DNA from: Sphaerolaimus hirsutus
Lineage: Eukaryota > Nematoda > Chromadorea > Monhysterida > Sphaerolaimidae
DNA: 64,000 nucleotides
Reading direction: 5' to 3'
NCBI GenBank assembly: GCA_964036195.1
Contig: OZ038457.1
Location: 17,635,147-17,699,146 of the forward strand
A model generated the notes under the pieces. It was not told where the DNA came from. It searched no databases and worked only from the letters and a program-made list of their open reading frames with translations. Shown here piece after piece: positions 6,001 through 52,655 of the stretch. Position 1 is the first letter of the stretch. Each line of letters starts with the position of its first letter. Position numbers and translations under genes: made by a program.

Positions 6001-6380
6001 GAGCGCGGCGGCGGGCACGCCCGGCGGCCGGCCCACCAGGTGCCAGTGCCGGACCCTGGAAAATGTAAAATGTCACGCAAAGTATCAAAAGTCACGCAAA
6101 ATGCCCGGCAAAATGGCAACCGAGTTGCCATTTTGCAGGGCATTTTACGTGACTTTTGACACTTTGCGTGACATTTGACATTTTACAGTGGCTGGGACTG
6201 CCCACCAGGCAGCACGCGACCAGCTACAGCAGTCTGGCCGCGCTGGGCGTGTCCAGACGGGCGGATTACCGTCGCGGCATGTCGGCCAACACGAGCAGCA
6301 TGCGGAGGCCGAACCAGTTGGTCACGTGCCGCCGCAGCGCCACGGTCGCCCGCAGCAGCACTATCGATTCCATTGTTTGA
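1..6380 (+). CDS. Multi-pass membrane protein of unknown function, 3' part
   Basis: Exons 1-216 (open at the window edge), 908-1034, 5640-6039 and 6209-6380 join in phase (0, 1, 2) to 304 codons before TGA at 6378. The first exon encodes a hydrophobic segment (VVILLAVGLVAAMIALIVG), the second another (VFYVLCLLILAVFAGVC), and the third begins with a third (VVLVSSLAATPLELWLC) followed by a long polar tail rich in Asn, Gln, Ser and Arg. The layout of short loops, closely spaced membrane segments and a long cytoplasmic tail suggests a small tetraspan protein; I do not recognise the family. Intron 2 is 4.6 kb and full of repeats. Intron 3 (6040-6208) is one complete copy of the intron-forming element. 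The acceptor at 5638 and donor at 1035 were chosen because only they keep the frame. The 5' end lies outside the window. Confidence 0.7.
1075..1282. repeat. Short foldback transposon, family A copy 1
   Basis: Ends are near-perfect inverted repeats built around GTTGACACACGTGTGTCAAC, and the inner arms (gatcgctctgcgac and its complement) also pair. The same element recurs at 38225-38405 in an intron of the Arg/Ser-rich gene. No coding capacity. It lies just inside intron 2 of the first gene. Confidence 0.75.
1940..2105. repeat. Tandem repeat, about 43-bp unit
   Basis: Three to four units containing 'agtgcacatatccatctc' separated by 'ggaccaccggagtttcattt'. The first unit is more divergent. No gene overlaps. 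Confidence 0.7.
3307..3862. repeat. Foldback element with CAGGGGTGGGCA ends
   Basis: Two arms of about 185 bp (3307-3493 and 3672-3862) are inverted copies of each other, with ends CAGGGGTGGGCATCTTCAG and its complement. The end sequence resembles hAT terminal repeats. I found no clear target duplication. Confidence 0.7.
3884..4337. repeat. TACCGTATTTCCTCGAA foldback element
   Basis: Begins TACCGTATTTCCTCGAAATA, followed by C-runs, and ends with the complement (TATTTCGAGGAAATACGGTA). The inner part repeats cgaaatacccccccc blocks. This is the most frequent repeat family in the window; other copies are annotated separately. Confidence 0.8.
4494..4562. repeat. Short GCGCC/TGGCGC palindromic block
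   Basis: Contains gtgccatggcactcttggcg and related self-complementary words, a diverged relative of the larger GCGCCATGGCGC arrays at 9475-9715, 10640-10810 and 41820-41900. Confidence 0.5.
4564..5112. repeat. TAGGGTGTCAAA element with CCGTTTTCC array, truncated
   Basis: Begins tagggtgtcaaatttccg and continues as an array of CCGTTTTCCGTTTTCCGG words, the same end and repeat as the complete element at 52656-54618. No right end is visible. Related fragments lie at 2694-2790 and 48628-49035. Confidence 0.65.
5145..5222. repeat. Partial TACCGTATTTCCTCGAA element
   Basis: Only the right half is present: aataactcccc followed by ggggtatttcgaggaaatatg. Confidence 0.6.
6040..6208 (+). mobile_element. 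Intron formed by a palindromic introner-like element
   Basis: The intron starts GTGCCAGTGCCGGACC and ends GCTGGGACTGCCCACCAG. The two halves fold into a long hairpin (gtcacgcaaagtgtcaaaag arms). The 8 bases before the donor (CCCACCAG, 6032-6039) are repeated exactly as its last 8 (6201-6208), as expected if a target-site copy supplied the AG acceptor. Splicing gives an uninterrupted Pro-Thr-Arg-Gln-His reading frame. Confidence 0.85.
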
Positions 6381-6754
6381 AGTGTTTAGAGTGGCTGTGG
6401 ACGATTTACTTGTAAAAATGACGTCATCGTAATTTTTTAAGAGAACCGTTTATCGATCTCATTATTTTTAAAACTTCATTATTTGTATGTCCGTTGCCCC
6501 AACAAAAAGGCCATTCGGACAATCCAAAAAACTCTTTCAACTTTCTCTTCAGACGAAAAATATTTGTTCGATCACAGCGTTATTTATCAGTTGTGTTTTT
6601 GTTAGTGATGAAAAAGCACAAGCCCATGACGTGACATTAGCTACATATTTGATGGTCCTGAAAAAAATTAATTGACAATGTAACTCCAAAACGGTAGTAT
6701 TCATCTGTGACATCAGTGGGGTGCGCACTGATTTTTCCTCGCGTTTTTTCAAGG

Positions 6755-7015
6755 TACCGTATTTGCTCGAATAATTCCCCTTGGGGAGTATTTCTTCAGT
6801 AGATTTTTTAATGAGAAACTATTCAAGGGTGGGATTTTTATCCCATAAAATTTTTCAAGCAGGCAAATATTTCAGGATATTAATGCACTCATTTCAGGAA
6901 ATATGCTTTATTATTAGCAAAATAATTTTGCCATTTTGTTCAAATTGAACATAAAACTTTCAAATGCATGAAGGGAACTATTCAAGTGGGAATAATTTAA
7001 TCGGCATTATTCAAC
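6755..7015. repeat. Diverged TACCGTATTT foldback element
   Basis: Begins taccgtatttgctcgaata and carries the cccttggggag and ttattcaagg words typical of the family. The right end is degraded. It lies in the spacer between the first gene and the SLC6 gene. Confidence 0.55.
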
Positions 7016-7315
7016 AGATATACTATTTTGAATGAAACAAACATGTTTCAACCCAAACATGCCAGCAAATGTGCAACAAATGTTGAAATATGCCACATAG
7101 ATCATAGATGTCATTTTAAACTTTGTGACACAGTTTCTCTTCTGAGTGCAAAGTTAAAAATTAAGTTTACCTATTTCAGATTCAACCAGTATAATACACA
7201 CCCCACTGATGGCACTACAAATAAAAGCGGTTAAAATAGTAACCGTCACTAGCCGGCACTTCTTACATCACTACTAGTAAATAGATCGCCCTTTTCACCC
7301 CGAGATCAAACCAAG

Positions 7316-10300
7316 TCAGGTTTTCGACTTTTTCCCAGATTTCCTTGCTGCAACTTTACTGTCATGGCTCGTTTCCCTGCTTCCCGCGTTTGAAGCAGTT
7401 TTACTCTGAACACGGTTGAAATTGCCAAATGACAAAAACATGTGAAAAATGCCAAAATGATGTGAAGATTTTCTCACTTTCCTGTCCTCTGCCTGCGGCG
7501 GGGACATCACCGTTCCGGATTCGCTGGGCTGCGTGCCAGAGTCGCTGGCGCTAGCCTGAAAATTAGAGAAGTTTCTGATCATCACTGGCGGTTCTTCTTA
7601 CAAAGCCAGGGTTTTAGGAAGACAACCGCGTGCAAATTGAGAAGTGTCGTCGGCGGTACGGTTCAAACGATATATCGTATCGAATATGGAATATCGACGA
7701 TTTTTCAACATCGAACAACGAAAATTGAATATCGAAATGTTTGTAAAAATATCGAATATCGATATCGTAAAGTCATCCTTTGAACCCTAGTCAACGGTCG
7801 AAGCGCACATAAAAAAATGGGAACCAAAACGGCGCTGCTATAATTGGACTCTTGTTAGAGGAGCTTACCACCAAGGCGCGGACACCTCGCCGTTGCATTT
7901 CCACCCAGGTGCACTCACCCAATCATATGAATCCCGTTGCGGCGACAGCGACCGTTCCTCCCCTTTCCTTTTCGGTTTGCGACCGAAATGCCGGTTGGGA
8001 CGCCAAATCACGCGCCACGGTTCGCCCTGCGATATTTTGTGACATATACTTTATTTCCTCGAATTACCCCCTTCAATTAGTAATAATAGCACGGGAAATA
8101 ATAAAGCCCCTGGGAGTACCGTATTACCTCGAATTATCCCCCTTGAATAAACCCTTACTCCAAATAAACCCCCCCCCTTCAAAATGGGCTGGGGAAATAA
8201 TAACCCCCCCCCCCCGCCGGAATGATGTTCATCATGTGATGATCAAATATCAAATAGGTTTACTTGACTCAGACCTCAAAAGCCAAATGCAAGTAAAATA
8301 CAAATGATGATGATGATGATGTACATCGGTTGAGGAAATACGGTAAACGGGTCTCAAACTGTCACGGTGCTACCTTTTTGCGCGCAATCACAGCGTATAG
8401 CGCGAATGCGCAGATCAGCAGGGCCGGTAGGAGCGCCATACCCAATCCGCCCGCTTCCCACCAGCCGCTCAGCAAGTGGCCGCTCTCGGACATGGTGCGG
8501 TACTTGACGAAGTTCCACAGCAGGATCACCTGTGTTTTAGAGGGATGACTGCAGTCGAAATGGTGCTATGGGCTGATAAAAGGGGTCAAATTGAGCACAC
8601 AGTCAGGTAAATTGGAGTGGTCACCATCCAAGTGACGCGCCAGTACCACCCAGTCGGGCCCACAGTCACAGCTATCTGTTTGATGAACTTCTTGTGGCCC
8701 AACATGACATTGATGCCGCGCACTAGGCGATTCCACCCTGAAAGAGCGGCGGTAATTGCGTCGTATTTTTTATGGATGTTTTTCAGACACCAACCAAACA
8801 CGTAGGCGACGGCGAATATCTCGACAAACAAGATGATCAGTAGACCCCAGTATGCGGAATAGTTCAACCATATCTGCGAGTGAACAACAGTTTAAAGATG
8901 CACACTGCGGGGGTATTGATGGAAAGGTCGCCAGATTGGCGCAGGTGGTTTCTTGAATAATTTTGGGCCTTGAATAATCCCCCGTTAGATGAGCCAGAAA
9001 AAAATAATAATTCCCCCCCCCCCTAGAATAAGACCCTGCATGTAATTATATCTACCTAGTCGTCTCTTCAGGCTGCTGCACGTAGCCCTCTTATCAAATT
9101 TCTTATCCTCACACGACGAAGTGAACAATCGAAATTGGAACAAGCTTAAACTGTAACGCAGCTCACGCTGAAATGGTACAGTCCTCCCTGGCAGCACTGC
9201 GGTATGGCAGCCAGAAACATTGCAAAACAGGTCGCCCCCACAACAGCCGGCTTGTACGGTCGCAGATGTATGAAATTGTCCAGCACCGCGGTAGTCACGG
9301 TTTCGACCATTGCAAACTGCAAAAAAAATATCTAAATTGGTATTTACGCGTCAAATTTGTGTCATTTGGAAATTTCTCATCCCCTCAAATCGGCTCACGA
9401 CAAATTCTGCCGCACAACAAACTCGTGTCGCGCAGTTTTTTGCGTGACAAAAGTTTGTTGGGCAGGTAGTGATGGAATGGCGCCATGGCGCTGGCTAGTG
9501 ATGGAAAAGCGCCATGGCGCTGGCGCCTGGCGCTAGCGCCAGAGCAAAAAGCGCCATGGCGCTTTTGGCGCTTGGCGCTAAAACGCTCTGGCGCTATTGG
9601 CGCTTGGCGCCGGGATCTGACAAAGCGCCATGGCGCTTTTGGCGCTTGGCACCACTTTCTGGTTGCGCTATTGGCGCCTGGCGCTGGCATTTTTTATGGC
9701 GCCAAAAAAGCGCCAACCATAATTAGAAAAATGGTTAGACGCCGTTTACATGGATTTTTGTGACGACTCGACAACAATAAAACGTTCAATAAGTTTAGAG
9801 TTCAAAGAGTAAAAAGGTTCCATATTCATTAGAAAAAGTGGTCAAGTATACCTTCTACCTAAGCGAATATGCAGGCCAAATTGCAGACTCGTGCTTGTAG
9901 CTCAAGGTTTATAACATTCGAAAAAAGTTTGCTATTGTCGCTGGCTGTCGGAGACAGTCCAACAACTTTCCGACAACTGCAAAAGTTTTCAAACTCATGA
10001 GCTACAAGCACGATTGTGCAATTTGACATGCATATTCGCCTAGGTAAGATGTATAATTGACCACTTTTTCTCATAAATATGGAACATTTTTACTCAACGT
10101 ATTGAACATTTTATTTTTGTTGAGTCGTCACAAAAAATCCGTGTTAACGGGGTCTTATAATATTTACAGTGAAAATTCACAATCCAGTTGATCAATTTTG
10201 AGTACAACTGTATAAATATTGATAAATATAGGTAAGGGTGTCAGGAGCCATAAATATTTATTCAATATTGATTAGGTAATATTTGGGGTCAAATGTATAT

Positions 10301-13300
10301 ACCGTATTTCCTTGACATTTCCCTCCCTTGAATAAACCCCCTCGAAATACCTCCCGTTTTTAATAACATACATCATGTATGCAATGTACATTATGTATTA
10401 TTTGCTGCCAATTTCCATCGCAGATACATATAAAGTAGTTTGTACATGCATATATGCAAATATACCGTATTTCCTCGAAATACCTCACTTTGAATTAATA
10501 AAACATAAACCCCCATGGGGGTAATCCGAGGGGATTTTAACAATGTAAACATTGTAGTGGTTGATTTAACTTCAATGACGAAAGTTAAATTGACTACTAC
10601 GACATCAGCGGTGCCGGTGCGTCAAACGAAGCACAGGAAAATTTTTTGGCGCTGGCGCTATTGGCGCTTGGCGCCATTACCCTCTGGCGCCATCGGCGCT
10701 TGGCGCTGAGGTTCAGAAAAGCGCCATGGCGCTTTTGGCGCTTGGCGCCAAAAGTCTGGCGCTTTTTCCATCACTAGCGCTGGCACTCCTTAAGGGCGCC
10801 AAAGGTTGTTGTGCCATGGAAACACTTGTGCACTACAAACTTTTTTGTCGTTTTTTTTGCGCATCAAAAGTTTCTTGTGTAGCAGACAACGCTGGTTATT
10901 GAATAGCGCAATAGCCTCAAATGGTGCCAGCACTCAGAGTTGTTAAAATACCGGTATTTTTGGAAAGTGTAAGTGTAAGCGTAAATACACTTTCCAAATT
11001 TTGAGTATGGATACAAAAAGTGTAAGGTATTTTAAAAATACCTAGGAAAGTGTAAAAAAAAGTGTAACTGTAAAAAAAATTTTCAGAAAGAGCTCTCACT
11101 GTTGAGCATTAGAAAACACCACTTTTTTACCTTTAGATCAATTTATTTGTCATTTTCATGCATTATTTCACATTTTACTGCCTTTTATGAAACATTTTAG
11201 ACTGTAACAAATACTGTAGTGGTATGAAGTTCCCTAATAATGGCACCTTTTCAGTGTTGATATTTTACTGATTAAGCAATGCGATACACACTGTTTAAAT
11301 GCAAGAATGGACATGCAGCAGATGTCAATGCAAAAGCCAGTTGACTTTGTGTCCAGCTGGTGAATTTCCATTGATCTTGTTCTTTTTACAAAAGTATGAT
11401 GAAACTGTAGAATACCATGAGTACTAATCAAAGGTTGGAGATCAAAGACATTAGTTTGTACATTTGCCATATTTTCTACATTCAATGCATGCACTGTGCA
11501 GTTATTTTTTGTACATGACCCTATTTTATGCTTTCTCAAAAGCATAAAACAGGGCTATCTGAAAGAAAAAAATACACTTTCTGTACCCGGGTATTCTGCT
11601 CAGGAAAGTGTAAAAAAAGTGTATGGGTATTTTATGAAAGTGTAAGTGTAAGTGTAAATATAAATACCCATTTACCCGGGTATTTCGGGTAAGTGTAAAT
11701 ACACTTTCGCAACTCTGCCAGCACTACGGCGTCATTCCATCACTACCTGCACAACAAACTTTTGTTGCGCAAAAAAACTGCGCGACACAAGTTTGTTATG
11801 CAGCAGAACGTGTTCCGCCCGCCTCAAATCACCTGTGAATCCAAGCCGAGTAATAGCAACATCGTAAAGAAGAGAATGGACCACAGGTTTGGTGCCCACA
11901 TGGTGCCGATGGCCTCCGGGTAAGTGATGAAAGTCAGCGTGTGGCCCTGCTTGACCACGTTGTCCATGGCGACGTTGCCGCCCAGCGTGTATTTCAGGTA
12001 GCCGATCACCGTGAACACCGCGAAGCCGCCGATCACCGATGTGCAGCAGTTTCTGCGAAGCATATCGTTGTTGTGCCGCAGCAGAAGTTCACACTCACAC
12101 ATCAATCGCGTGTCGCCGAACTCACATGAGAGCTACCAAGACCGCGTCTCGCCACACGTTGTTGTGCAGGTGGTTGTAACTGGACATTGTGGGCAACGTG
12201 CCAAAACCGGGCCCCAGCGAGTAGCAAATCTGCATGGCCGCTTCTTGCCAAACTTGCGCGTTTGCCAAACTACCCATGTCTGCGAGTTGACAGTTTTACA
12301 TCTCGATATACCACCCTCGAAATACCCCACTCAAAATGGACACTTTGAGTTTAATAACCACACTCGAAATACCCCCCAAATATAGTGTATAGAGAACGTA
12401 AAAGACAAAAGCTATGGTTTGTGTTCCGGCAAATATAGAACACACGTTAAAAACAATGACTGTGTTATGTTAGAACAGGGTTTATACCATCTACGTACAT
12501 ATATTAGTCTATAGAGTCTTATACATGGTCGGGCTGAAAAGTCCCCGGGCAGTGCTCGCCATTCGCGCTAGGGGTAAGCTAAGGTCATAACATTTTAACA
12601 CGTTAACATATCAGGTGTTTTGAGTTTTCACCCAAAATTTCACCCCTCTAGCTCCACCCACTGCGGAACTGTGGGGGTTACAATTTCCGTCATTTTGTAC
12701 TGATGTACAAATGGTGCTCTAGCTGAATGCTGCTTTAAGTTGTGATCATGAAAATTTGGCTAGTGTAAGCCACCAGTGTTGGCAATGTGCCAGCACTAAC
12801 CAACATTAGCTACGATATCATAAGTCTAGTTCATATTGTCATTACTGTCACTACTCTCACTACCAAATTCATCATTCTGTCTCTCCTTCTCAAAAAGTGG
12901 TTAATACAGGATGCATTTTGCATGCACACTGTTGTTGAACACAGGTAATGTGTCCACTACAGAGTAGTAATGAAACATAGGGAAATTTTAAACACATAAC
13001 TCACTTACTGCACATTTCAAAACAACATTCAAATCATTGCATTACAACATGATCTCAGATGATCACCAAAAACATCCATCACACTTCCCACGTTTCTTGC
13101 ACATCACCCTGATCTGCATATTAATTTTACCTTAATAGCAACGATGTTGATGAAAGTGTTGAATACTATCAGCACATTGACAACACTGGTGGCTTACACT
13201 AGCCAAAGTTTCATGATCACAACTTGAAGCAGCATTCAGCTAGAGCACCATTTGTACATCAGTACAAAATGACCGAAATTGTAACCCCCACAGTTCCGCA

Positions 13301-16300
13301 GTGGGTGGAGCTAGAGAGGTGAAATTTTGGGTGAAAACTCAGAACACCTGATATACTACCTGTTATACTACCTACTACCTGATATAGTACTGGCATTTCA
13401 AAAAATTTCTGGCGAAATAATACCCCCCCCCTCGAAATACCCCCCTCATTTAACCCCCCCCTCAAAAATCTCACTCTGACAGAATAAACCCCCTGGGGGT
13501 ATTTCGAGGCAATACGGTATTTAGTACACGAAACACGGCCACATATTCGCAAGAGTAACCGGGCGTGATGTAAAATTTCGCTCCCTCCATCGCGTTGGTC
13601 AAGGTGAAGCCTCTGACCAGCATGATGGCCAGCACGACGAAGGGCATCAGCGACGTAACGTAGACAACCTGTAATGCGGCGCGATAAAAAGTACTAGAAC
13701 ACCATGAAAACAGATGGAATGAGTTCACCTTGCCGAGGCTTTTAACGCCGAACATGAGGCACAGGAAGACGACCAGGGGGCAGTCCCAGACCCTGTAAAA
13801 TGTCAAATGACGTGCAATGTGTCAAAAGTCATGTAAAATGTTCTGTAAAATGGCAACCGATTTGCCATTTTGCAGGACATTTTACATGACTTTGGACACT
13901 TTGCACGACATCCCAGAGTCTGGGACTGGCACCAGCCAGGCGACGGCGAGCGAGAGGACCAGCCTCCACATAGGGTAGCCGGTGCCGGGCGCGTCGCCCA
14001 TCGCGAGCATGTCGTACAGGTAGTTCCTGTATTTATATGCCTAGCTTGCACTACTGCAAACGGCGCCGCAAAATATATACCCTAAATCCTCGAATAAAAC
14101 CCCAGGGGGAGTTATTATTTCCTCAGACGTTTTGGAGGGGGAGTTATTCAAGGGGGGAGTTATTCGAGGAGAGTAGTTATTTTTTCCTTGGAAACCTTCG
14201 ACTTTATTCATTGCATGGATGTAATCTGTAAACTTATGTAATTCATGTATTTATCTGTCAGACAACGACAAAAAGGTGTGTATACCAGAGTTGTACAAAT
14301 ACCGGTATTTTTGGAAAACGTAAACGTAAACGTAAATACCTTTTCTCAATTTTAAGTATTGATACTAAAAGCGTAAAATACTTTGAAAGTACCCGGGTAA
14401 ACGTAAAAAAAACGTAAACGTAAAAATATTTTGAAGCACTCCCATCATCAGAGCGTGTGAAAAAAACCTCACCCATTTTTACAGTTTGATGGACATGATG
14501 AATAATGTGAAGTATTTATTCATTGTCAAGTACACAGTGAGTGGAATCTAATACACCCCGCACATAAGGTTTCCGCACGGGCAACTTTTGTGTGTTTATA
14601 ATTGCGATTTGTGATGACGATGTGCTAGGGGGGGGCTGATTTTTGTATCAAAAATTAGCCAGAACATTTCATTACAAAGTATAAAATTCCAGCCCCCCAA
14701 ACTTTATCGTACCCCCCTAGCGTTATTGTAGAAGTGAACTTCTGTTCCTGGCGCATGAACTTTTGTCTACACCAATTTCATTTTTTTTTATCATGCTCGC
14801 CATTTAAACATTTATATAACCTCATTTATTGTTCACTAGGTCGTCTGTATTATTAGTAATTTAAATTCCAAGGCCTTGGTATCGTTATCGCCTGCTACTA
14901 TTACATTACAATACATGGTGCTCTTGTTATAAACTTTGAAATGTTGCCCATCTATATGTCCGTATATTATAACGTCTCGTGATCTACCTGTCGTATGTTA
15001 AAAGTCTTTGTCTTTTTCGCTTATGTAAAAAGGATATCCATGACTCGCGAAGCCACCCGTGGTATTGTTGGTGAAATGAAATGAATGAAATTTTGGGGAC
15101 TCTGCATGGGATAGGGGTAGGATAAAGCTAGGGTGCATTTTATACGTTGGTAGAGAAATGTTTTGTCTATCTTTTTCCACCAATATCAGCACCCTAGCGC
15201 ATTGTCATAATGAATCGCAATACATAAACACACCAAAAGTCGCCGCGCACGAACTTTATGCATAGGGTTTTGAAAATATTTCAAATAAATAGCAGTTTTT
15301 ATATTTTCCATATGATTTTTACGTTTTCCCTAGTACCCGGGTATTTTGGTCAGGAAAACGTAACAAAACGTAATGGTATTTTTGGAAAACGTAAACGTAA
15401 ACGTAAGTATAAATACCCAAATAACCGGGTATTTCCGGTAAACGTAAATACGTTTTTCCAACTCTGGTGTATACACTGCATACACATCATGTATCTGCTG
15501 CCGCTGCTGTAGACTAATATTCTTTTGTATTTTTGTATTGTATCGTTGTCATCCAACGGGGGAGTTATTCAAGAGGGGGAGTTATTCGAGGGGGGGGGGG
15601 TTATTTCTTATTCGCCTCGCCAACAGGGGGGAGTTATTCAAGGGGGGAGTTATTCGAGGAGAGTAGTTATTTTTTCCTTGGAAACCTTCGACTTTATTCA
15701 TTGCATGGATGTAATCTGTAAACTTATGTAATTTAATGTATTTATCTGTCAGACAACGACAAAAAGGTGTGTATACACTGCATACACATCATGTATCTGC
15801 TACCGCTGCTGTAGACTAATATTCTTTTGTATTTTTGTATTGTATCGTTGTCATCCAACGGGGGAGTTATTCAAGGGGGGAGTTATTCGAGGGGGGAGTT
15901 ATTCGAGGGGGGATCTTATTCGAGGATTTGCGGTAATATAATAAAATGCGTTCAAGGCTGATTTATGAATTTAATAACTTTTGACAATTTCACTACCGTA
16001 TTTCCTTGAAATACCCCCAGGGGGGTTTTTTAGAGTGAGAATTTTGAGGGGGTTAAACGGGGGGGGGGTATTTCGAGGGAGGGGGGGGGGTTATTATTTC
16101 GCCAGACGTATGCAGACGTAGAAAAATTCAACAATAAGCATCATGTATAAGAGCGGTAGTTCGAGGGGTGTATTTCGAGGGGGGATTTCGATGATATACG
16201 GTAGTTAACTACTGTGTGCAGCGACAATAGAATCACACGAAAAACTGCCCTACCCCCCTAAAATGCATCACCCCCGGACAGCCGCATCATTAGCAGTAGC

Positions 16301-18490
16301 ACACCTGAAAAACTCCTCCGCGGGTGGACTGGGCACAGTGATATTGAGGTTCATTCGCTGCTCGTGGTACACCTGCCATTCGTGCACGAAACTATTGAAC
16401 ACGGTGTCGGTCATCCACGACATGACGCTGGTGTTCCTCGTGTCGTAGACCGACTGAAGGGTTGAGTAGTCGAAAATGTTGACACACTCGAATGGGGCTG
16501 GAAAGTATTTTTGGTTGTGTTGCGGCAGTGACAATGAGATTGGTAACCCTCGTAGGTAATTGGTTTCTGTTTCTGATTAATTCCCGCTCGAACAACTTCA
16601 CTTTACAAAATGCTGCACGTAAGTGAGAGTTCAATAAATTACGACCACTCTGGAAAATCTTTTGAAAACTGTTTTCACTGAGTTATTATGAAATCCATTT
16701 TTTTGTCAGATACTTAACTATGCCGATACCTAACTACCTGTGCTGACACTGCCGAGAATACCGATTTCATTCACACAGTATTTTGAAAAATTGCTTACGA
16801 AAAGAAACTCTCCTCGAAAAAAAACCCTTTCAGTTGTCAGATGAAAAATAATTTGGTTTAAGCTCGCCGAACCCAGCCAACTACCGGTAGTTTGGTTGCA
16901 GAATCTCGCACGATGACAGGTCGTGTTGAACCAGTAGGCACCCTTGTGGACAGAGTCGTCGAAAATCCTATGCGAGCACATTTTGTCCTCGTTCACGGAA
17001 ATGCAATCTGCGGTTGGGTCGCGCGAGGCTTTTGCAGTATAAGCTGTAGTTATTTGATGAAGTTTATAAATTTAAATTGCCCGGAGACTGTTTAGGGCAG
17101 CAATGCAAAATGTGTAAAAATCCTGTCAAATGCGGTGTCCAATGAACAACGCCAGACAAATTTCTCATGTGTCGTGTTTTACACGGCATTTGTATTTTTG
17201 CATGACATTTTTGACACAATTCACAGGATTCCGGAAAAGCCCTTGGTGGCCCCAGTTCACGGGCGGTGTAAAATCTCAAACAAATGGGTTCTCGCTGGCG
17301 AACAAAAAGAATAAAAGCCGGGCGATTTAATTTTGCTCCCGTCAACCGACTGTGCGTGTTCCACCAATTGTCGCAATGCTGCCACCAGAGACCGCGGAAG
17401 TCCCACGAAAGGCCCCAGTAGATGATTATCCACGTGATGATCACATTGTAATACACGCTCACGGTGAATGCTATCCAAATCATCGACCAGCCGACACCTG
17501 TACATTTGCGATTTTAAAAATTACCTGGTTGTACACCGTCCACCCAAGCTCAGTACCTACTCAAAGAAGCTCAAAAAGGCAACAAAAAGCGAAACAATTC
17601 ATTTCGCGCAAAATTCTTACGAAAAAAACACATCAATTTGAATGACTCCAGACTCCACAGTCAAAAAACCAAAAAGAAATTTAGGTGGGAGGGAACTCGA
17701 ATACATACCTATATAAGCTAATAAAAATTGAAATTTACATGCAAAAGAAAATGTACGCATTGAGTTAGCGTTTGGCACTTCGCCATTCAAAGAAGTTTAC
17801 CTACCTACATTCGCGTTAGACTTTTTCTAGGTACCTAGTATAACCTGCAAACATGGGCGACATCTTCGTAAATAGCTGGACGGGGCCCTTGCCGGCGTAC
17901 TGGCCCAGCGTCAACTCCAGATAGAATACCTGCGGCGCAAACCTGTTAAACGCGACAATTTACCGACGTCACAAAACTCTGAACTCACTGGCAGTCCGAC
18001 CGCGAACAGCGCGATGCCGTAGGGAATGAGAAATGCACCTCCGCCGAACTTGTAACACAGGTAGGGGAAGCGCCATAGATTGCCCTGGGGGCACTACCAG
18101 ACCATGTAAAATGTCATGTAAAATGTAAAATGTCATGTAAAGTGTCAAAAGTCATGTAAAATTCCCTGTAAAATTGCAAGCGTTCGTCCACCATTCTACA
18201 GGGAATCCTACATGATCTTTGCCACTTTGCGGGACACTTCAAATCTCACAGGGCCTTTTACAGTGTCCGGAAGCGGCACCAGCCCGATGGCGTAGCCCAT
18301 GGTGGCCAGGAAGAACTCGATCTCGCTGTCCCAGTGGCCGCGCGCCTTCTTCACGTCGGTGGACGAGCCGCGGTCGGCTGGCGACTGGGCCGGCTTGTCC
18401 TTGAGCCGGCGCACGGCCAGGATCCGCTGCGTGGCGCTCTCGGACCGAGTCTGCGTGCGCTCCTCGCTGCCCTGCGGCCCGTGCGATGAT
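7316..18490 (-). CDS. Sodium-dependent SLC6-type neurotransmitter/amino-acid symporter, 5' end missing
   Basis: Exons in transcript order: 18490-18280, 18084-17989, 17929-17845, 17497-17351, 17007-16885, 16497-16305, 14026-13933, 13773-13729, 13668-13560, 12279-12126, 12052-11833, 9316-9167, 8873-8601, 8529-8374 and 7555-7316, in phase throughout, about 764 codons. Family signatures are clear: TM1 [18 protein letters not shown], then [18 protein letters not shown], the large outer loop with paired Cys, [16 protein letters not shown] in TM6, NCCTS, and LLGLDSQ in TM8. These place it in the plasma-membrane Na+/Cl- coupled symporter family; the substrate cannot be named. Two introns are palindromic elements (18085-18279 inside the TM1 signature and 13774-13932, which lacks an AG). 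The last exon has a possible internal donor at AAA|GTGAGA, so the C-terminus is uncertain. First exon(s) upstream of 18490 were not found. Confidence 0.88.
7655..7795. repeat. GATATCGA-rich element with GTTCAAAC ends
   Basis: Starts ggttcaaacgatatatcg and ends atcctttgaaccctag, with AT-rich gaatatcgat words between. Similar sequence flanks 2800-2890 and 4340-4475. Confidence 0.5.
8118..8344. repeat. TACCGTATTACCTCGAA foldback element with ATG microsatellite
   Basis: Ends taccgtattacctcgaatta and gaggaaatacggta. It contains C-runs and a short (GAT)n tract near 8304-8322. It sits just downstream of exon 14 of the SLC6 gene. Confidence 0.7.
9475..9715. repeat. Array of GCGCCATGGCGC palindromes
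   Basis: Dense, imperfect repetition of gcgccatggcgcttttggcg and gcgcttggcgc words. Almost every unit is itself palindromic. Open frames across it are compositional artefacts. Related arrays lie at 10640-10810 and 41820-41900. Confidence 0.8.
9736..10157. repeat. Foldback element with long terminal inverted repeats
   Basis: Left end ttagacgccgtttacatgga followed by tttttgtgacgactcgacaa pairs with the right end near 10105-10157. The interior is also palindromic around agcgaatatgcaggccaaat and its complement near 10030. Confidence 0.7.
10303..10545. repeat. TACCGTATTTCC foldback element
   Basis: Begins accgtatttccttgacattt and contains a second left-type end (accgtatttcctcgaaatac) at about 10464, so two partial copies may be joined. 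Confidence 0.55.
10640..10810. repeat. Second GCGCCATGGCGC palindromic array
   Basis: Repeats ggcgcttggcgccattaccc, gcgccatggcgcttttggcg and similar words, as at 9475-9715. It ends before a 'tccatcactagcgctggcac' junction shared with the host element. Confidence 0.75.
10935..11717. mobile_element. hAT-like element, CAGAGTTG ends, 8-bp target duplication
   Basis: Ends CAGAGTTG and CAACTCTG. The flanks 10927-10934 and 11718-11725 are both ccagcact. Sub-terminal arms (ataccggtatttttggaaag, gtgtaagtgtaaatacactt) are inverted. No transposase ORF. Confidence 0.85.
12300..13520. repeat. TACCGTATTTC-family element split by a 755-bp foldback
   Basis: A left part with C-rich cgaaataccccactc words (12300-12500) and a right end (ggggtatttcgaggcaatac, to 13520) flank an unrelated foldback at 12605-13360. 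Open frames are not coding. Confidence 0.55.
12605..13360. repeat. 755-bp foldback element with 180-bp arms
   Basis: The left arm 12605-12790 (catatcaggtgttttgagtt, then gctccacccactgcggaact) is the inverted complement of 13180-13360. The central 390 bp is AT-rich and unique. It lies in the SLC6 intron between exons 9 and 10. Confidence 0.8.
13774..13932 (-). mobile_element. Introner-like element in SLC6, without an AG acceptor
   Basis: On the coding strand exon 7 ends TGGCTG, followed by GTGCCAGTCCCAGAC; the element ends GGTCTGGGACTGCCCCCTG, followed by GTCGTCTTCCTG. The in-frame junction (Ala-Trp-Leu-Val-Val-Phe-Leu) matches SLC6 TM4, so removal must run from GT to TG. The flanks share only CTG. 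No in-frame AG alternative is visible. Confidence 0.75.
14078..15940. repeat. Tandemly duplicated TACCGTATTTC-type sequence
   Basis: The block 14140-14285 plus 15475-15560 is nearly identical to 15630-15865: gagagtagttattttttcc, gaaaccttcgactttattc, catcatgtatctgctgccgc and tgtatcgttgtcatccaacg occur in the same order. The first copy is interrupted by the hAT-like element at 14286-15466. Confidence 0.75.
14286..15466. mobile_element. hAT-like element, CAGAGTTG ends, 8-bp target duplication
   Basis: Ends CAGAGTTG and CAACTCTG. The flanks 14278-14285 and 15467-15474 are both gtgtatac. Sub-terminal arms with ataccggtatttttggaaaa and cgtaaacgtaaatac are inverted, as in the relative at 10935-11717, but the centre is unrelated. 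Confidence 0.87.
15993..16203. repeat. TACCGTATTTCCTTGAA foldback element
   Basis: Begins taccgtatttccttgaaata and ends gatttcgatgatatacggta, with long G-runs between. Confidence 0.75.
17095..17245. mobile_element. Degenerate introner-like element inside an SLC6 intron
   Basis: Retains the arm words caaaatgtgtaaaaatcctgt and gcatgacatttttgacacaa and the hairpin layout, but the ends have decayed. It sits within the intron between exons 4 and 5. Confidence 0.5.
18085..18279 (-). mobile_element. Introner-like element splitting the SLC6 TM1 signature
   Basis: On the coding strand the donor is CTG|GTGCCGCTTCCGGACA and the acceptor is GTCTGGTAGTGCCCCCAG|GGC. It divides the invariant TM1 signature between GYAIGL and GNLWRF. 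GT and AG are both carried by the element. Arms containing catgtaaaatgtaaaatgtc pair. Confidence 0.85.
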
Positions 18491-20320: not shown

Positions 20321-20329
20321 TCTAATCCA

Positions 20330-21285: not shown

Positions 21286-21987
21286 TGCATTGCGCAACGG
21301 TGTACTATGCAAGTGCGATTTTTACTCGATTTTATTCCAACATTACTTATGGTATGTACTCGTAGGAAAGACATTATCATGATCATCAGACAATTGAGTT
21401 CCTTATAAATTTTTCTCCGCTTCAAGCACATGGACATATTTAAAGCACTTGGTTTTACAATAAATTGTGCTACTTTATATTTACGTTTTGCTCGTTTTAC
21501 AAACAGTAGTGTAAGCTTTAGTTTGAGGTGCAGACAGGTTGATTCAGCTGTCTGCCGCGTGCCGCCTCATGAAAAAAATGGTTTTCACCGCCCCCCCCCC
21601 CGCAAAATTTCTGCATTCACATGAAAAATATAGGTAGGTATTCAATAATCGTAGTGTAAGAAGAGAAATTATAAATATATTTCGTAGGTTTTCCTTTGCG
21701 GCGCTTCTGATCGTTTTACCTGGCAATTAACAGAATAAATACACGATTCAATATCTTTGTCTAAATTCCAACGTTGCGGTGTCTATAATCTCCGATAAAT
21801 GGACGAAATCTCGCCCACTGTTCCGAATGTTTCCTTCTATCCACAGATGAATACAGAGTAAAAGTGCGAGAGAGTTTGTGCCGGCCGGCAGTGGCACTGT
21901 TTATCACAACTGAATCGGGGCGGCGCGCGGAAACTGCATGCGATTGTTTGCACCGGCCGCCCGCCGCACCGACGGAAGTTGCACAGG

Positions 21988-22380
21988 TGTCAGTCCCAGA
22001 CGCTGTAAAGTGTAAAAGACCCTGTAAAGTGTCATGTGTCACCCTGTAAGATGTCAGATGTCATGTAAAAGACCCTGTAAAGTGTCAACTGTTATTTAAA
22101 AGACCCTGTCAAGTGTCATGTGTAGCCAAATCTTATTGCATCGTATCCTAATCTTATGTATCTATATACAGATCTTACTTATTGACAATAGATTTGGATA
22201 AGATACAATAAGATTTGGATACAAATGACACTTTACAGGGTTTTTTACATGACATTTTACAATTAACAGGGTCTTTACATGACACCTGACATTTTACAGG
22301 GCATTTTACATGACACATGACATTTTACAGGGTCTCTTACACATTACAGGGTCTCTTACTGGGTCTGGGACTGCCCCCAG
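21988..22380 (+). mobile_element. Long introner-like element, possibly in a 5' exon of the EFA6-type gene
   Basis: The left junction CACAG|GTGTCAGTCCCAGACG and right junction GGGTCTGGGACTGCCCCCAG|GTG match the intron-forming family in plus sense. At 393 bp it is the longest copy: it holds several aagaccctgtaaagtgtca repeats around a core with aaatcttattgcatcgtatc, a core type also found at 38760-38870. If transcribed it would be spliced from a 5' exon of the downstream gene. Flanking coding potential is unclear. Confidence 0.65.
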
Positions 22381-37960: not shown

Positions 37961-40900
37961 ATGGCCGTCACCAACGGTGCGCTCCTGCTCTACGCGGCAC
38001 TGGCCGCGGTCACCTACTACCTGTACCGTCGCTGGCGGCAAGGCGGCGCCGACCAGCCGCACGCGCCCGTGCTCACGCAGCGGTCGATATTGACGCGCGG
38101 CCCAGTGCCCATCGTGTACACGCAGGATGGCACCCCCGTGGAGTTGATGCCCCTTGCTGTGGGTTGATAAATAAAATAACATGGCGCGGCAACGCGCGGT
38201 TGTAACGTGAATGGCAGCCAACACACTAGTTGACACATGTGTCAACTGGTCTGTGTCAACTCAGATTTTGGCTTCACGTGTCGCAGAGCGATCTTCCAAC
38301 GCACTTGATGAAATATTATTTTTCGGCATTCCCCATGTGCATTTGGGGATCGCTCTGCGACACATGAAGCCAAAATCTGAGTTGACACACTTGTGTCAAC
38401 TAGCACGCTGGCCGCCAACAGAACAACCACACCCTAACAGGTCACAACGGCGGACAACAAGCAGCGCATCGTGTACATGATCAAGGACTGCCGCACGTTG
38501 GCGGTGGCCACCCCGCAATCCGACGAGATGCAGCAAGTGTCCCAGCGGCAGCAGCAGCCCAGTCAGCGGGCGCAGCAGCAGCCCGACCAGGAACAGCAGC
38601 TGGAGCCGACGACGGCCAGGGAGCAGCCCGCACCGCAGTCCCCAGGGCAGCCGCGGGCGCGCGCCACTCTGTCTAGGTCGGCCCTGTCGAAGCAGCAGAA
38701 GGCGCTCGCCAGGTTGGCCAGGTTCCAATCCCAGATCCTGTAAAGTCCTGTAAAGTAACGTGTATCCAAATCTTACTGTATCATATACGAATGTTATATT
38801 TTTGTGTATGCTTATCATATGTGCAAAAGCGAGATTTGGATACTGTACAAAAAGATCTGGATACACATTACATGGTCTTTTACATAAAACCTGACATTTT
38901 ACAGGGTCCTTTCCATTTTACATTCCGGGGTCTTTCTTTTACAGGGTCTGGGACACATGAATACACAAATCTACGCTGTCACACGAATCTTCGACCGCAG
39001 GTCCAAGCGCGCCGAGAGCCGCCAGCGCAAGCAGCGCAGCTCGCGCCACAAGCACAAGTCGGGCGGGACGAGCTGCTTCGGCCGCAGCAAGGACAAGCCG
39101 GTGCCCAGCAGCCGCCGCTCGCGCTCGCGCACGCCCAGCCGCAACGCCGTGCGCTCGCCCTCCCAGAGCCAGCAGCAGCCGACCCGCGGGTGCGTCCACC
39201 CGCACGGTTGCGGGGTTCGAATGGGATTTTGAATTCTGGTATTTTGTAGTCCGGATCCCGAATTCTGAAAATTACGACACCGAAAAACTTGACCAAGGGA
39301 TAAAAATTGAAAGAAATGACATTTCGCAGTGAAAAATGTGAACCGAAATATCCACTGTGCCTTTCAATGCCACTTCTCTCAAATTTAAGTATTTTAAACA
39401 TTTTGGATAGAAATTAGGTAAAAACCCTCTATAACATAACTTAAGCCAAACCCCGACCAAAACTCCCGTAACCGATCCTCCGATAACTCCGATCCCGAAA
39501 ACTCAAAAACCAATCCCGATCCCCTGACCTCACTACCGAAAATGCCAATTCCGACCCGGAAAAGTCAATCCCATTTGAACCCTACATTTGGTCTAATTTG
39601 AATGTGCATCTGCAAAGCGCAATCTTATTCGCCAGGCGCAGCCAGGGCGGCACGACCACCGCTCGCAGCAGGGCGGCCAGCCGGTCGCGGTCGCGCAACG
39701 CCAGCGTCAGGGCCAAGGACGCCATCCAGGTGAGGCCGTCGCCCCCCCCCCCCCGTTATTGGGTGGGTATAGGCTTTATAGGCTTTTTCAGTGCATAGAA
39801 GGCCGAAAGGGGAAACAATCGCTAATAATCAGTTAAAAGTGATCAAAAGTAGGTTTAAAATGGCAAAAAAACAGGCATATAACCATGCATATAGCCGGAG
39901 AGCACAATTTTGAAGGTGAAAAACTATAAAAAGGTGCGAAAATTGGCGATTTTGAGCGAAAATTGGGGCAAAATTTCTCAATAACCACTCCAGATAGATA
40001 GATGGCTGAGCGATTTGGGGGGGGCCTTTGGGCTTTGGCAGCCCCCCCCCCCTAGGAGACCCCTGGGGAGTAGCACATTCCAGAAAGAAATGGCATTCCG
40101 CTGGTATTTGAGTTTGATAGAAAAAGTGCACCGGGCACAGAAAATTTTGAAATGGTGGCCACCAGACTAGGGTTGGAAAAAAAACGTTTTTTTTAACTCG
40201 ATGTTTTTTTTTAAAAGCTCCCAGATATGACCTAGTGTCAACATATATAGGTATATCAGACACTGGCAATACTCTGTGATGTTAAATATGACCATATAAT
40301 GGCTGTGGAGCCATGGGATAGCATTATAAGTGGTGACTTGTGTCAAAAATATCCATTTTTCCTCGACATATCGTTCGTATATCGCCTTATAGTTGAATGT
40401 TCGTGACTTCAGGTAAAGTTTGGCACGGAATGGTGATCAAACAAGGTTATAAAAGGAGGTTGTTACTTTGGGAGTGAAGTTACACACTGTGGAGGTACAT
40501 TACCTCAATATTATATATTACAGCAACATATGTCGGCTTATTCACCCATGGTAGCACATAGAAATGGATGTTTTGATACTAAAAATGCAACAAAACCAAT
40601 GAAAACAACCACCAATGTCAATTTGTGTGTGAAATTGCGCGCTTGCGCGCAAAAATTTTGCAAAATACCTAGTGCTTAGTACTAAAAATTTCGGCCGATG
40701 TTTTTTAAAAAAAAAAAACATTTCGGACGTCATGTTTAAAAAAAAAAAAAAAACGTTAAAAAAAAAAACGTTTAAAAAAAAACATCGGCCAACCCTACAC
40801 CAGACAATATCCGCCTGAATTAGCAGAATCTTAAAGCATGACACTTAACAAAATTATGTGTCATGATTTAAAATTAACTATGGCAGTTAACGTTGAGTTG

Positions 40901-41220: not shown

Positions 41221-41481
41221 CACACTTCGACAAGTAAAGTTCTCTAGTATCACAGATGAAAATGCATAATTTTGTCGACCGAACAAAATTTAAAAAACAA
41301 CAATTTTGAAGAGAAAAAAAAGAACACAACGCGCAAAAAGCACCCAGACGGCAGCAAAAAAACTTAAGTGAAATGTCCCAAAAACCAGCAACTCACCGAA
41401 AATGCATCACAAAAATGCACGCCTAGACAACAACAAATCGACAACACAAACTTCGACTTTGGCATTGTCATCGACTCGCAT

Positions 41482-44400: not shown

Positions 44401-47400
44401 CTGGAACACTGAAGGCACATCAGCCGCGCGCCACCTCTCCGTGTCCAATATATTGCACAATTTCGCCTTGCGTTCATCGTGAAAATGAGCCACAAAGGCA
44501 GTAGTCTGACCCTGAACGGCCTGCCGCAACAGCAGGCACTTCTGAGGGCAGTCCCAGACCCTGTAAAGTGTAAAGTAAAGTGTCAAATGTCATGTAAAAT
44601 ATCAATCAAAACAACAAAGAAACGATGTTATTACTGAACTTTGCATGACAATTGATACTTCACATCTGTCATTACAAATGACACTTTACATGACATTCGG
44701 CACTTCACATCACACTTCACAGGGTCTGGGATTGGCACCTGGTCGCGTCTTTGCTCACTTTCACTGTACTGCACATCGCTTTCAAGCTGCCGCCCGTCCA
44801 CGGAAATACTCGGCACGCAGGCGGTCGATGCAGACTTGGACAAGCCGGGGCTAGTTGGGCGTCTGTCGGCGGGCCGCGGCGAGTGGACGCCGGTGAGAGT
44901 GTCGCACCGGTTGCAGAAATCGAACATCACCTGGCACACTCTGGAGTAGTTCTCAGGCGACAGACGTTGGAAGAAACCGTCCTGGAATCAGTGTATTTGG
45001 TGCTATCGTTATGGCACTGGCTGAATCTAAGTACTTAAATTTGTGATTACCGTGTTTACTCGAGTAATTCCCCCGGGGCATTATTTTTTCGTCAAACGGT
45101 TTTAAGGAAGGAATTATTACTTCATCAAAATTTTTAAGCATGTATCTATAACACATGTGTCCTGTCCACAGCTGAAATCGAGGGTAGCATTTTAGGTGGG
45201 GGGTCTAACCTGCCGGCACGTGTTTATATCTCGCTGGGTGAAAATTGTTGATATTTGAATATAATATGGTTTCAGGTCGGGGCTAACATGAAAATCGAGG
45301 GCATCCTCGAATAGCCCCCAGTCCCAAGATAGTCCCGAGAATACATTTAAAACAAAAATGAGTTCAATATCTCTTTCCAATCAAAGGTTATAGCACTTCA
45401 AACTTTTCCCTCCCATACACCTAAATAATTGCATAAAGAACAAGCCATGCAACTTCAAAACTCCATATCTCGACCATTTCTCAGCCGATTTTCACCAATG
45501 AACACTTAAAATGACCAGAATGACATGTAGATTTCATTTTTACTCCCATATTATCTGTATGCATTTTCATTATGATAATTTGATTCAAGAGTTCACATTA
45601 TTTTCTTGTATGGGAAATCTGATAAAATATACAGATAATCTTAGAATAAAAATGAAATCTCCATGTCATTCTGATCATTTTAAGTGTTCATTGGTGAAAA
45701 TCGGCTGAGAAATGGGCGAGATATGGAGTTTTGAATTTGCATGCCTTGTTCTTTATGTGGTTATTTATGTGAATGGGAGGGAAAAGTTTGAAGCGCTGTA
45801 ACTTTTGATTGGAATGAGATATTGAACTCATTTTTGTTTTATTTGAATTCTCGTTGTCTAAAGTATATGATAGCATTTTATTTTTCATGTTAAAAATCCG
45901 GGTCAAATTGGCATACAGAATTTAGACATCACTAATACGACTACAAAAAAGGAATCTGCAGGTGTTCCCGATCATTTTAAGTGTTAAACGATCCAAATCG
46001 GCCCAGAAATGGCCGAGTTATTAACCTTCAAATTCAATATGCCTGATCGGCAATGCAAAATGACCACCTTTTTATAGACCCCCCTTATATCGGGACTGGC
46101 CAACTATTCGAGGATGACCTCGATTTTCATGTTAGCCCCGACCTGAAACCATATTATATTCAAATATCAACTAGTTTCACCCAACAGTTCCCGAGATATA
46201 AACACGTGCCGGCAGGTTAGACCCCCCCCCCCCCTAAAAGGCTACCCTCGATTTCAGCTATGGTCCTGTCTTCGTTGGTATCACACATTCCATTGCATCT
46301 TTGCACACCGCATGTGCTGTATTTGCATACGATAAATCAAACCAGAACGAAGCTCAGCCTAGCCTCATCGATTGTTTTTAAATTTTTTTATTATCATTGA
46401 GGGATTATTCTAGTTGGGAATTCATTTTTTCCTCACTCGTCAACAGGGAAATTATTCAAGTGGGGGAATTATTCTTTCATCACTCGTCAACAGGGGAAAT
46501 TGTTCAAGTGGAGGAATTATTAGAGAGATACACCTTCAATTCGACAGCATAACAAAAAGGCTCGCACCTTGGCTCTGGCGCCCAGCACCTTGGCAATGCG
46601 GTCTTGCGCACTGGAAACCGCATGCGGCACCAACGAGTCAAATTCTCTGGCCAGTTCGCTTTCGGCGCCAACGCCAAGCGCCGGTCGCCCGCCATCGTTC
46701 ACTGCCTCGCTGACAATGTCCTTGAGCGTATCGTGGAGTGTCTGTGGGAAATTGAATAGTCAGAAATTGGTTGATTAGTGGGTATCTGAGTCTATACATA
46801 GGGTTCAATTTCCGGGATTCAACGGTCCCGACCAGATCCAGATATCTGAAAATGCCAATCCCGATCCCGAATATTTTCAAATCCCGATCCCGAAAAACTC
46901 CCCCTATCGTAATTCAGACCCCAACCGACACAAAAGGAAAAAAAGACTTTTTGCGCTGAGAAATGTGAACGGAAATATCCATTATGCGCTTTATACCACT
47001 TCTTTGGCAGTAAAGCGGTTTTTTTTTGTGAAAATTAGAGTAAACCCACCATAAAAGAACTTTGGACAAAATCACGATCCCGATCACGAAAACTAAAAAA
47101 AAAAAACTAAAAAAACAAACAACCCGAAAAGTCAGTCCCGCATGAACCCTACCTAAACAACCATATTGAAGAGGCAAACCTCGATTTTGTGGACGAAAAG
47201 AAGCATGTTGTTGATCAGTTCGCATATAAGCTGCAGAAACTCATCCAGCGCCATTTTTCGTATCTGGTCACCCAGCATGCTGCTATGAGAATGCGCATGG
47301 TCATCAAAGAATGGGATAATAAAGCCATACCACCCCCCCCAACAAGGTAGCTGAGCTCTAGAGAGGTTTGATTGAAAAGGTGAAATTGTGAATTTCGATG

Positions 47401-50400: not shown

Positions 50401-51124
50401 ATAAATGTGATCGAGGTGAAAAGGCAGATACAGTAACTCAAAAAAACCTGCGCGAAGCGTTTCCAATACTCGATTATAACGTCGTGATTGGGTTTGTGCA
50501 GTTTAGCGTTGGCTGGCGGCGCGGCTTTTTCCGTGAAATGCTCTCCCCAGTGTCGTTTGAAGAAAAGAGCGATTTCGGTGCGGGACTTCCGCGGGTCCGC
50601 GCAAACTGACGCGATGTTTTGGGTTGGACTGAATACAAAAACGCGATTTACGCGGTCGAACACAACATCATTAACAGATAAAACAAGCCGGGGCAGCATT
50701 AAATGCCGTGCAAAATGTCATGGAGGGTGTCAAACGACATGTAAAATGCTGTATAGAATGGTAAACATGTTTGCATTTTACAGGGCGTCTTACATGACTT
50801 TTAGCACTCACATGACATTTACAGGGTCTGAGAGTTGTACCTGAACAAAGTGTAGGGGCCATCGGCGCGCCAGCTGGCCAAGGAGCTGAGCGAAGCTGCG
50901 CGATCAACACTGCTAGCTTTTCTACTACATGTAGGCGAATCGCCAGAGACCCTGCAACCACAACGAACCAATGACCAAAGCGAAATGTCAATCTGGCAGG
51001 GTGCCAAAACGCACCACGTCGCCGAGGTGGACTCCATGACAATGTCAGGCAGCGCGTACTTGGCTGCGACGGCTGAAGTATATTCAGCCTTCCCCCCATC
51101 GAATCCATGCACCTCATTTGACAT
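41482..51124 (-). CDS. Vps54: Vps54, GARP complex subunit
   Basis: Seventeen exons in transcript order: 51124-51015, 50951-50841, 50628-50448, 50374-50251, 49761-49625, 49555-49413, 49294-49150, 48497-48270, 47762-47596, 47279-47180, 46741-46568, 44981-44739, 44541-44349, 43795-43538, 43223-43063, 42646-42479 and 41682-41482. They sum to 2844 bases, 947 codons plus TGA, close to the usual length of about 970. Family landmarks: FSPTQNIASVCADPRK near the N-terminus, the coiled-coil region SKQFFKAVTTYDALSTQLAE, ELLATVRDSQSSVQ, DQLGSVVVGLTRLHDFRYID, the SRTCQLILGAGAKELVGLT motif, and a C-terminal DGPTYALVCAEFSYYMGALR. Vps54 tethers endosome-derived vesicles at the trans-Golgi with Vps51-53. The start ATG and the first two exons rest on phase and splice signals rather than similarity; the donor at 47596 is inferred from phase. 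Introns 44542-44738 and 50629-50840 contain introner-like elements. Confidence 0.9.
41713..42150. mobile_element. hAT-like element carrying a GCGCCATGGCGC array
   Basis: Ends CAGGGACGTATCCAGG and CCTGGATACGGCCTTG. The flanks 41705-41712 and 42151-42158 are both agaactgt. Long G and C runs lie inside each end, with a GCGCCATGGCGC block at 41820-41900. Lies in the last Vps54 intron. Confidence 0.82.
44542..44738 (-). mobile_element. Introner-like element in Vps54
   Basis: Donor GACCAG|GTGCCAATCCCAGACC, acceptor GGGTCTGGGACTGCCCTCAG|AAG, phase 0. Joining gives EQRRDQ-KCLLLRQAV in frame. Element and intron coincide. Confidence 0.87.
45050..46510. repeat. Nested foldback elements in a Vps54 intron
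   Basis: An outer degraded taccgtgtttactcgagtaa element surrounds inverted arms 45174-45325 and 46105-46261 (gaaatcgagggtagcatttt; aacctgccggcacgtgttta). Inside lies a further pair at 45465-45560 and 45640-45735 (catttctcagccgattttca). Near 46410-46530, gggaattattcaagtggg words repeat in tandem. No coding sequence. Confidence 0.65.
46797..47153. repeat. TAGGGTTCAA/TGAACCCTA element
   Basis: Left end tagggttcaatttccgggat, right end agtcccgcatgaaccctac, with repeated cccgatcccgaa words. The flanks tctataca and cctaaaca match at six of eight bases. Confidence 0.55.
48628..49035. repeat. GGTGTCAAATTTC element with CCGTTTTCC words
   Basis: Left end ggtgtcaaatttcagttttc and right end atcgtttgacagccta resemble the complete element at 52656-54618. 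The interior is T-rich. No target duplication seen. Confidence 0.5.
49800..50210. repeat. TACCGTATTTCCTCGAA-family elements
   Basis: Begins taccgtatttcctcgaaata. Further cccccc and gggggtatttcgaggggg blocks at 49860-49890 and 50120-50200 suggest two overlapping partial copies in the intron between Vps54 exons 4 and 5. Confidence 0.65.
50629..50840 (-). mobile_element. Introner-like element providing only the donor of a Vps54 intron
   Basis: On the coding strand the donor TTCAG|GTACAACTCTCAGACCC is a decayed family left end. The element's right end (near 50690) has no AG, and the acceptor used is TGTATTCAG at 50629. Joining gives TLF-SPTQN in frame. Confidence 0.7.
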
Positions 51125-52545: not shown

Positions 52546-52655
52546 TTTAGCCCCCTGTGCGTTCGCTCGACCCACAATTCACATTTTTAACCGCGTGGTG
52601 GGTCGAAAGGTTCGTAAAAATCACAAGTTTGTATAGGGAAAACGACACGCCCGGC

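Follow-up and report, generated by a model that had tools for sequence, protein, structure and literature searches.

Introners are nonautonomous elements, scattered through a genome and bearing inverted repeats and target duplications, whose insertions become introns (PMC9860276). In the Chrysochromulina introners included in that account, the 5′ splice site is brought in by the element and the 3′ site is provided by the target duplication. Among animals, the same 2022 survey records introners in only two groups. It is an open question how a newly inserted sequence can function immediately as an intron. Here we describe a family of palindromic elements found in a 64,000-nucleotide stretch of the genome of the nematode Sphaerolaimus hirsutus (contig OZ038457.1, positions 17,635,147 to 17,699,146; hereafter called the window). 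This family is likewise dispersed and nonautonomous and appears to divide its two splice sites between element and target in the same manner. It is distinguished from the introners as surveyed in PMC9860276 by its CWG target (CAG or CTG), its near-complete palindrome and its large share of TG 3′ ends.

The CWG duplication is shared with NuwaI transposons (PHIS, PIF/Harbinger superfamily), which are described as occurring only in animals and as having inverted repeats that usually begin with GGG (PMC4482050). In the present family the inverted repeats begin with GGGG at one end, which fits NuwaI, and with GTGC at the other. Compared with NuwaI as described in that source, we find a short nonautonomous form only, with one end beginning GTG and with no transposase tied to it.

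Unusual intron ends also have precedents. Human TG acceptors lie within 28 bases of an AG, as the predicted ones do here, and that AG is thought to serve the first splicing step; in the human cases reported, TG is invariably one of two options, the other being AG, whereas here TG is the acceptor that fits the protein at seven CTG-ended junctions with homology (PMC2374985). The introns of Fritillaria, also an animal, have a repeated triplet (YAY) that precedes the 5′ site and recurs where the intron ends, and they use non-AG acceptors (PMC13326754). However, the commonest non-canonical introns in that account begin with AG, and 95% of all introns there are non-canonical, whereas here GT is the donor and both of the ordinary introns that we solved in an SLC6 gene of the window are canonical. 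Inverted repeats join the intron ends, and splice sites are relaxed, in the hairpin introners of Amoebophrya (PMC7789003) and the nonconventional introns of euglenids (PMC11170887). These are protist introns whose borders are portrayed as more variable, whereas in our family the GT end is constant and variation is largely confined to the W in the terminal WG. Among the open-licence papers listed, judged by title and opening of the abstract, we found no account of a CWG introner family or of constitutive GT-TG introners.

We consider it probable that the elements are an introner family derived from a nonautonomous cut-and-paste transposon of the PHIS/NuwaI kind, in which the GTGCC end provides the donor and the duplicated CWG provides the acceptor, such that a CTG target yields a GT-TG intron. 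TG-ended introns, if true, would bend the basic splicing rule that introns end in AG. The family would also separate the parts of intron creation, taking the donor from the element and the acceptor base from the target. Moreover, a single genome offers matched insertions at CAG and CTG in the hundreds, along with a set in which TG has apparently been mended to AG. With such material, one could measure directly how well an animal spliceosome tolerates non-AG ends and how far intron structure determines acceptor choice.

A palindromic element with a CWG target duplication

In the 348-Mb genome we count 1846 occurrences of the 16-base end GTGCCAGTCCCAGACC and none of its reversed control, and thus the element is present far beyond chance. 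A search for both exact 16-base ends, of the kind the first-pass annotation of the window had put forward, yields 138 near-perfect full copies. From these we took a sample of 70 in list order, passing over two likely segmental duplicates. The sampled copies have a median pairwise identity of 0.876, and elements are mostly 160 to 190 bp in length.

The element is almost wholly palindromic. A search profile built from the 70 copies assigns near-equal scores to both strands of full copies (at window position 27687, for instance, 183.6 versus 175.4 bits), as is expected for a nearly perfect palindrome. RNA folding of window positions 27684-27867 gives -120.7 kcal/mol (z -20.3), and folding of the minus strand of 13774-13935 gives -92.7 kcal/mol (z -13.5). 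Long hairpins had been claimed in the first-pass annotation, and these computations bear this out for one of its copies and for one that it did not list. The predicted splice sites are adjacent in both computed hairpins. The window contains no match to Rfam.

Despite this symmetry, the two ends differ. Among 110 elements gathered via their inner repeats from all loci and from the window, GTGCCA is paired with GGGGCA in 84, and GGGGCA is present at both ends in one. Because most of these loci had been selected by their GTGCC end, we also counted double-GGGG copies genome-wide; near-perfect copies of this form occupy 2 loci, versus 138 copies with asymmetric ends. We infer that the GTGC end of the element is a derived donor site.

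The target duplication comprises the 3 bp CWG. It is exact in 44 of the 70 sampled copies, and the triplet on the 5′ flank is CAG in 32 and CTG in 28 (together 60 of 70). Genome-wide, the flanks of copies recognized by 14-base ends are CAG/CAG (232), CTG/CTG (116), CTG..CAG (60) and CAG..CTG (22). The W nucleotides of the two flanks are strongly linked (p 5e-37), as expected of a duplication. This linkage, and the agreement to the base between full-copy boundaries and the element plus its CWG duplication, argue against a scenario in which repeats came to occupy introns that already existed at these positions. Two proposed introns in the window (38722-39000 and 50629-50840) are only partly made of element, in keeping with this scenario, but we find it scarcely plausible for the family.

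Orientation and homology of insertions in coding DNA

To the joined flanks of the 70 copies we applied a codon model trained on 551 codons from hand-chosen pieces of the window's recognized exons. Scores of at least 25 are reached by 27 copies, of which 23 beat the opposite strand by at least 10 bits. In every one of these 23 clear coding cases, the GT end is upstream on the sense strand (p 2e-7). Seven of the 23 are of the CTG/CTG class, although one of these (L066) encounters a stop three codons past the junction and is doubtful. The coding share is no different between CAG/CAG copies (11 of 25) and CTG/CTG copies (7 of 18) in this small sample (p 0.76).

The junctions of 24 of the 27 copies (leaving out L019, L020 and L074) were compared with PDB or Pfam. 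Clear matches cross the junction in 10 of these, corresponding to CNOT9, DNPEP, PPP2R1A, SLC23, OSCP1, THOC3, urocanase, SIR2, AMP-binding and MON2. When the window is included, eleven gene families show homology across a junction.

The same restoration of protein would result if the element were precisely removed from DNA in somatic or expressed genomes, as happens with the eliminated sequences of ciliates, given that exact loss leaving one CWG restores the protein at junctions with homology. But a palindrome that is cut as DNA should ignore orientation, whereas all 23 clearly coding copies face one way, and we rank this as the least probable of the explanations considered. Together, the target duplications, inverted repeats, dispersal, junction homology and uniform orientation support the view, already advanced in the first-pass annotation, that these introns arose by insertion of introners. 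That annotation had overlooked the CWG target duplication and the TG acceptor proposed for CTG insertions.

Copies in the window

About 14 copies of the element are recognized in the window by the profile search:

6040-6208, plus strand: full copy, proposed as an intron GTGCC...CCACCAG; open frame to either side; no Pfam family match.
13774-13932, minus strand: full copy in an SLC6 transporter gene; CTG on both sides; proposed intron GTGCC...GCCCCCTG (GT-TG).
17075-17227, minus strand: decayed partial copy; weak profile match (E about 1e-7).
18085-18279, minus strand: full copy in the same SLC6 gene as the 13774 copy; upstream exon ends CTG and intron ends CAG.
21987-22377, plus strand: compound or internally expanded copy, by profile match.
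26418-26625, plus strand: decayed copy, by profile match.
26857-27054, plus strand: copy with altered donor end TTGGC; CAG on both sides; profile match 26857-27051.
27687-27867, plus strand: full copy; proposed intron GTGCC...CCCCCAG; no family match.
35416-35583, minus strand: full copy in an SLC38-like (Aa_trans) gene; intron end TAG; Aa_trans match across the junction 6.1e-5, under the cut-off; no PDB match.
36924-37090, minus strand: full copy and proposed intron, close to the beginning of the SLC38-like gene that also holds the 35416 copy.
38722-39000, plus strand: proposed intron, most of which is a decayed copy (38724-38954); frame open across the junction; no family match.
44542-44738, minus strand: full copy; proposed intron; no Pfam or PDB match.
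50699-50837, minus strand: decayed copy inside proposed intron 50629-50840; frames open; no family match in three frames.
55863-55996, plus strand: decayed copy in two adjoining pieces, by profile match.

The profile thus finds again the six full copies that the first-pass annotation had reported, with the ends it described if small changes are allowed, as well as its decayed copies within 38722-39000 and 50629-50840. Every copy it listed is real, but the full copy at 13774-13932 had escaped it. Its assignment of the six copies to six genes was too generous: a further Aa_trans exon (1.6e-3, under the curated cut-off) lies between the copies at 35416 and 36924 and places both in one SLC38-like gene, leaving at most five genes. 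The claim that the copies coincide exactly with introns gains junction homology for the copy at 18085 and, weakly, for that at 35416; for those at 6040, 27687, 36924, 38722, 44542 and 50629 the support consists of open frames, and Pfam returned nothing convincing for any of these six. The gene holding 44542-44738 bears a resemblance to VPS54, although neither Pfam nor the PDB gave a match.

The two SLC6 copies are the most informative. When 18085-18279 is excised, the SLC6 alignment is gap-free across the junction (PDB E 2.5e-19; Pfam SNF 2.1e-22). When 13774-13932 is excised at GT..TG, the product yields a 70-residue gap-free SLC6 alignment that is 56% identical (E 3e-23), whereas no match is obtained when the internal ACAG, located 19 bases earlier, is taken as the 3′ end. 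The relatives listed for this gene are mostly from distant animals.

TG as a candidate 3′ splice site

At a CAG target, exact excision of the element produces a GT-AG intron. At a CTG target, the excision that exactly fits the protein is GT...CCCCCTG. Seven CTG-ended junctions exhibit homology: CNOT9 (1.5e-72, a 127-residue alignment with no gap at the junction), DNPEP (9.5e-25), PPP2R1A (3.7e-38), SLC23, OSCP1, THOC3 and the SLC6 gene of the window at 13774. AG-ended junctions with homology are those of SLC6 (18085), urocanase, SIR2, AMP-binding and MON2. The 3′ terminal AG of U2 GT-AG introns is absent from the CTG/CTG class, which includes 116 near-perfect copies genome-wide, and from the seven CTG-ended coding junctions, where TG is the predicted acceptor. 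In the THOC3 copy (L063), the triplet is TTG before the element and CTG after it, which is a synonymous difference in the exon-side duplication. This suggests an old insertion that still ends in TG.

One could instead suppose that the exonic CTG copies are not spliced, but are ordinary gene-breaking insertions that are new or heterozygous. Retention would indeed interrupt the frame by a stop or shift it in 8 of 8 cases, and the CTG/CTG class is half as frequent as the CAG/CAG class. Yet all seven clear coding CTG/CTG copies are in one orientation, and the interrupted genes are conserved, with frames that are otherwise open around the junction. Furthermore, divergence from the consensus is 8.0% for the seven coding CTG/CTG copies, 8.0% for the eight without a coding signal and 6.9% for the three with a weak one. 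The coding copies are as diverged as the non-coding copies, and therefore they are not fresh disruptions. On these grounds gene breakage seems very unlikely.

A second alternative is that CTG copies are spliced at ordinary GT-AG sites inside the element, with the ends remaining in the message and often adding about 14 to 25 residues. Frame-keeping GT-AG pairs were listed for eight CTG-ended copies (the seven above and L043), with AGs taken from the element itself and from the 60 bases that follow it. If the donor is at the element start, a frame-keeping AG is available in five of the eight, mostly producing deletions of at least four codons and once a 15-residue addition. No acceptor is common to all eight, and three copies have none. 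If the donor is also inside the element, frame-keeping pairs exist in every case, each copy having at least one that ends at the ACAG located 19 bases from the 3′ end, and introners that add codons are known from Aureococcus, as reported in PMC9860276. However, the added residues would fall in highly conserved proteins such as CNOT9. In addition, when the element is flipped in place, such pairs persist in all eight copies (2 to 15 each, 65 in total, versus 3 to 32 each, 109 in total, as found). Inner splicing alone would thus allow either orientation and predicts little bias, whereas the bias observed in coding copies is complete and points to the outer GT. We judge inner splicing to be unlikely, though better placed than gene breakage.

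Several observations weigh against the proposal of introners with TG acceptors. Human introns, in the analysis of PMC2374985, never use TG as the sole acceptor. CTG/CTG copies are outnumbered two to one by CAG/CAG copies, which may mean that TG ends are poorly tolerated. Inner frame-keeping pairs that add residues (14 to 25 for many) are present in all eight CTG-ended cases. Four of the 27 coding-scoring copies fall below the 10-bit margin, and while two of these favor the sense strand, the other two (L019 and L020) favor the opposite one. Finally, 14 of the 24 junctions compared gave nothing, a weak match or a one-sided match. Weak matches were obtained for L043 (Mito_carr, 2.8e-4, with the match beginning three residues ahead of the junction) and L053 (Ig, 3.7e-4), and one-sided matches for L037 (leucine-rich repeat) and L066 (collagen). 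The PDB and Pfam comparisons returned nothing convincing for L025, L015, L017, L034, L041, L050, L051, L067, L068 and L073. L043 bears a resemblance to SLC25A3, although PDB gave no match and Pfam only the Mito_carr match mentioned.

The flank classes offer a further view of how TG ends might fare. Neutral change would produce CTG..CAG and CAG..CTG copies in equal numbers, but the former exceed the latter by 60 to 22 (p 3e-5). This asymmetry fits selection that turns a TG acceptor into AG, as if TG ends were being mended by favored T-to-A changes. The copy at 18085 in the SLC6 gene of the window displays this pattern, in that the exon keeps its CTG leucine codon while the intron ends in CAG. 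The mending pattern and the excess of CAG/CAG copies both indicate that TG acceptors are inferior. An orientation preference of the transposase could also yield the 2:1 ratio, but not the 60:22 asymmetry. CTG..CAG copies are not commoner among coding copies of the small sample (2 coding, 4 without coding signal), and so it is the genome-wide asymmetry that carries the mending idea.

A proposed mechanism

We propose that a transposase supplied in trans, presumably of the PHIS kind, would insert the element into a CWG and duplicate these three bases, as the flanks display. The GTGCC end would then act as the 5′ splice site, the opposite end being GGGGC, and the duplicated CWG would provide the 3′ splice site, such that CAG gives a GT-AG intron and CTG a GT-TG intron. 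Both kinds would be spliced by the U2 spliceosome. According to the computed folds, the intron RNA should form one long hairpin in which the donor is brought beside the terminal WG.

The terminal WG is preceded, at a distance of 19 bases, by a conserved ACAG that falls within the paired stem or next to it. Along with UUGAC motifs that resemble the branch-site consensus, this ACAG may allow the spliceosome to start. The ACAG could serve intron definition, whereas the hairpin would hide its AG and present the terminal WG for the second step. TG acceptors would be used but would be imperfect, such that T-to-A changes that create AG are favored, consistent with the 60 versus 22 copies noted above. 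A bolder extension is that the hairpin, and not AG, picks the 3′ splice site of the whole intron family, that many genes rely constitutively on TG as their sole acceptor for such introns, and that the transposon need carry no more than half of the splicing signals. We offer this extension tentatively, and lean slightly against it.

Candidate transposase partners

An autonomous PHIS/NuwaI partner would encode a DDE transposase and a Myb-like protein. The DDE_Tnp_4 profile has 163 matches in the genome. A large Harbinger-like transposase family was considered as the partner of the element but is not supported: among the matches listed, three fall within the initial 10.46 Mb of contig 1, and none of these three has an exact 16-base end within 5 kb. 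The failure to find an autonomous partner with these ends is a point against the proposed explanation. The Harbinger-like family itself is spread over many contigs as many near-equal-scoring copies. Most of those listed have four in-frame TGA codons and a match that exceeds the profile length by about 190 bases, which would fit an intron inside the catalytic domain. A viral carrier of the element was rejected, as the viral contigs have no exact match to the 22-base end pattern.

Other features of the window and genome

Several other observations concern repeats and neighboring genes. Long inverted repeats with arms that match at 89-96% are present at 3303-3865, 12608-13354, 45336-45853 and 52216-52566, and are perhaps further hairpin transposon families. 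Clusters of a short TGGCGC/GCGCCA palindromic repeat occupy 9483-10782. A reverse-transcriptase-like open frame on the plus strand (52921-53856; RVT_1 1.2e-3, under the cut-off) is, we presume, BEL/Pao-like. An ADAR-type gene is also located on the plus strand (58900-62100), with A_deamin matches in two exons (5.1e-12 and 6.5e-5, the latter under the cut-off). Enzymes of this type act on double-stranded RNA, and the genome has many hairpin elements in genes. Outside the window, COX1 contains 14 in-frame TGA codons, indicating that TGA is a sense codon in the mitochondrial code, presumably for tryptophan.

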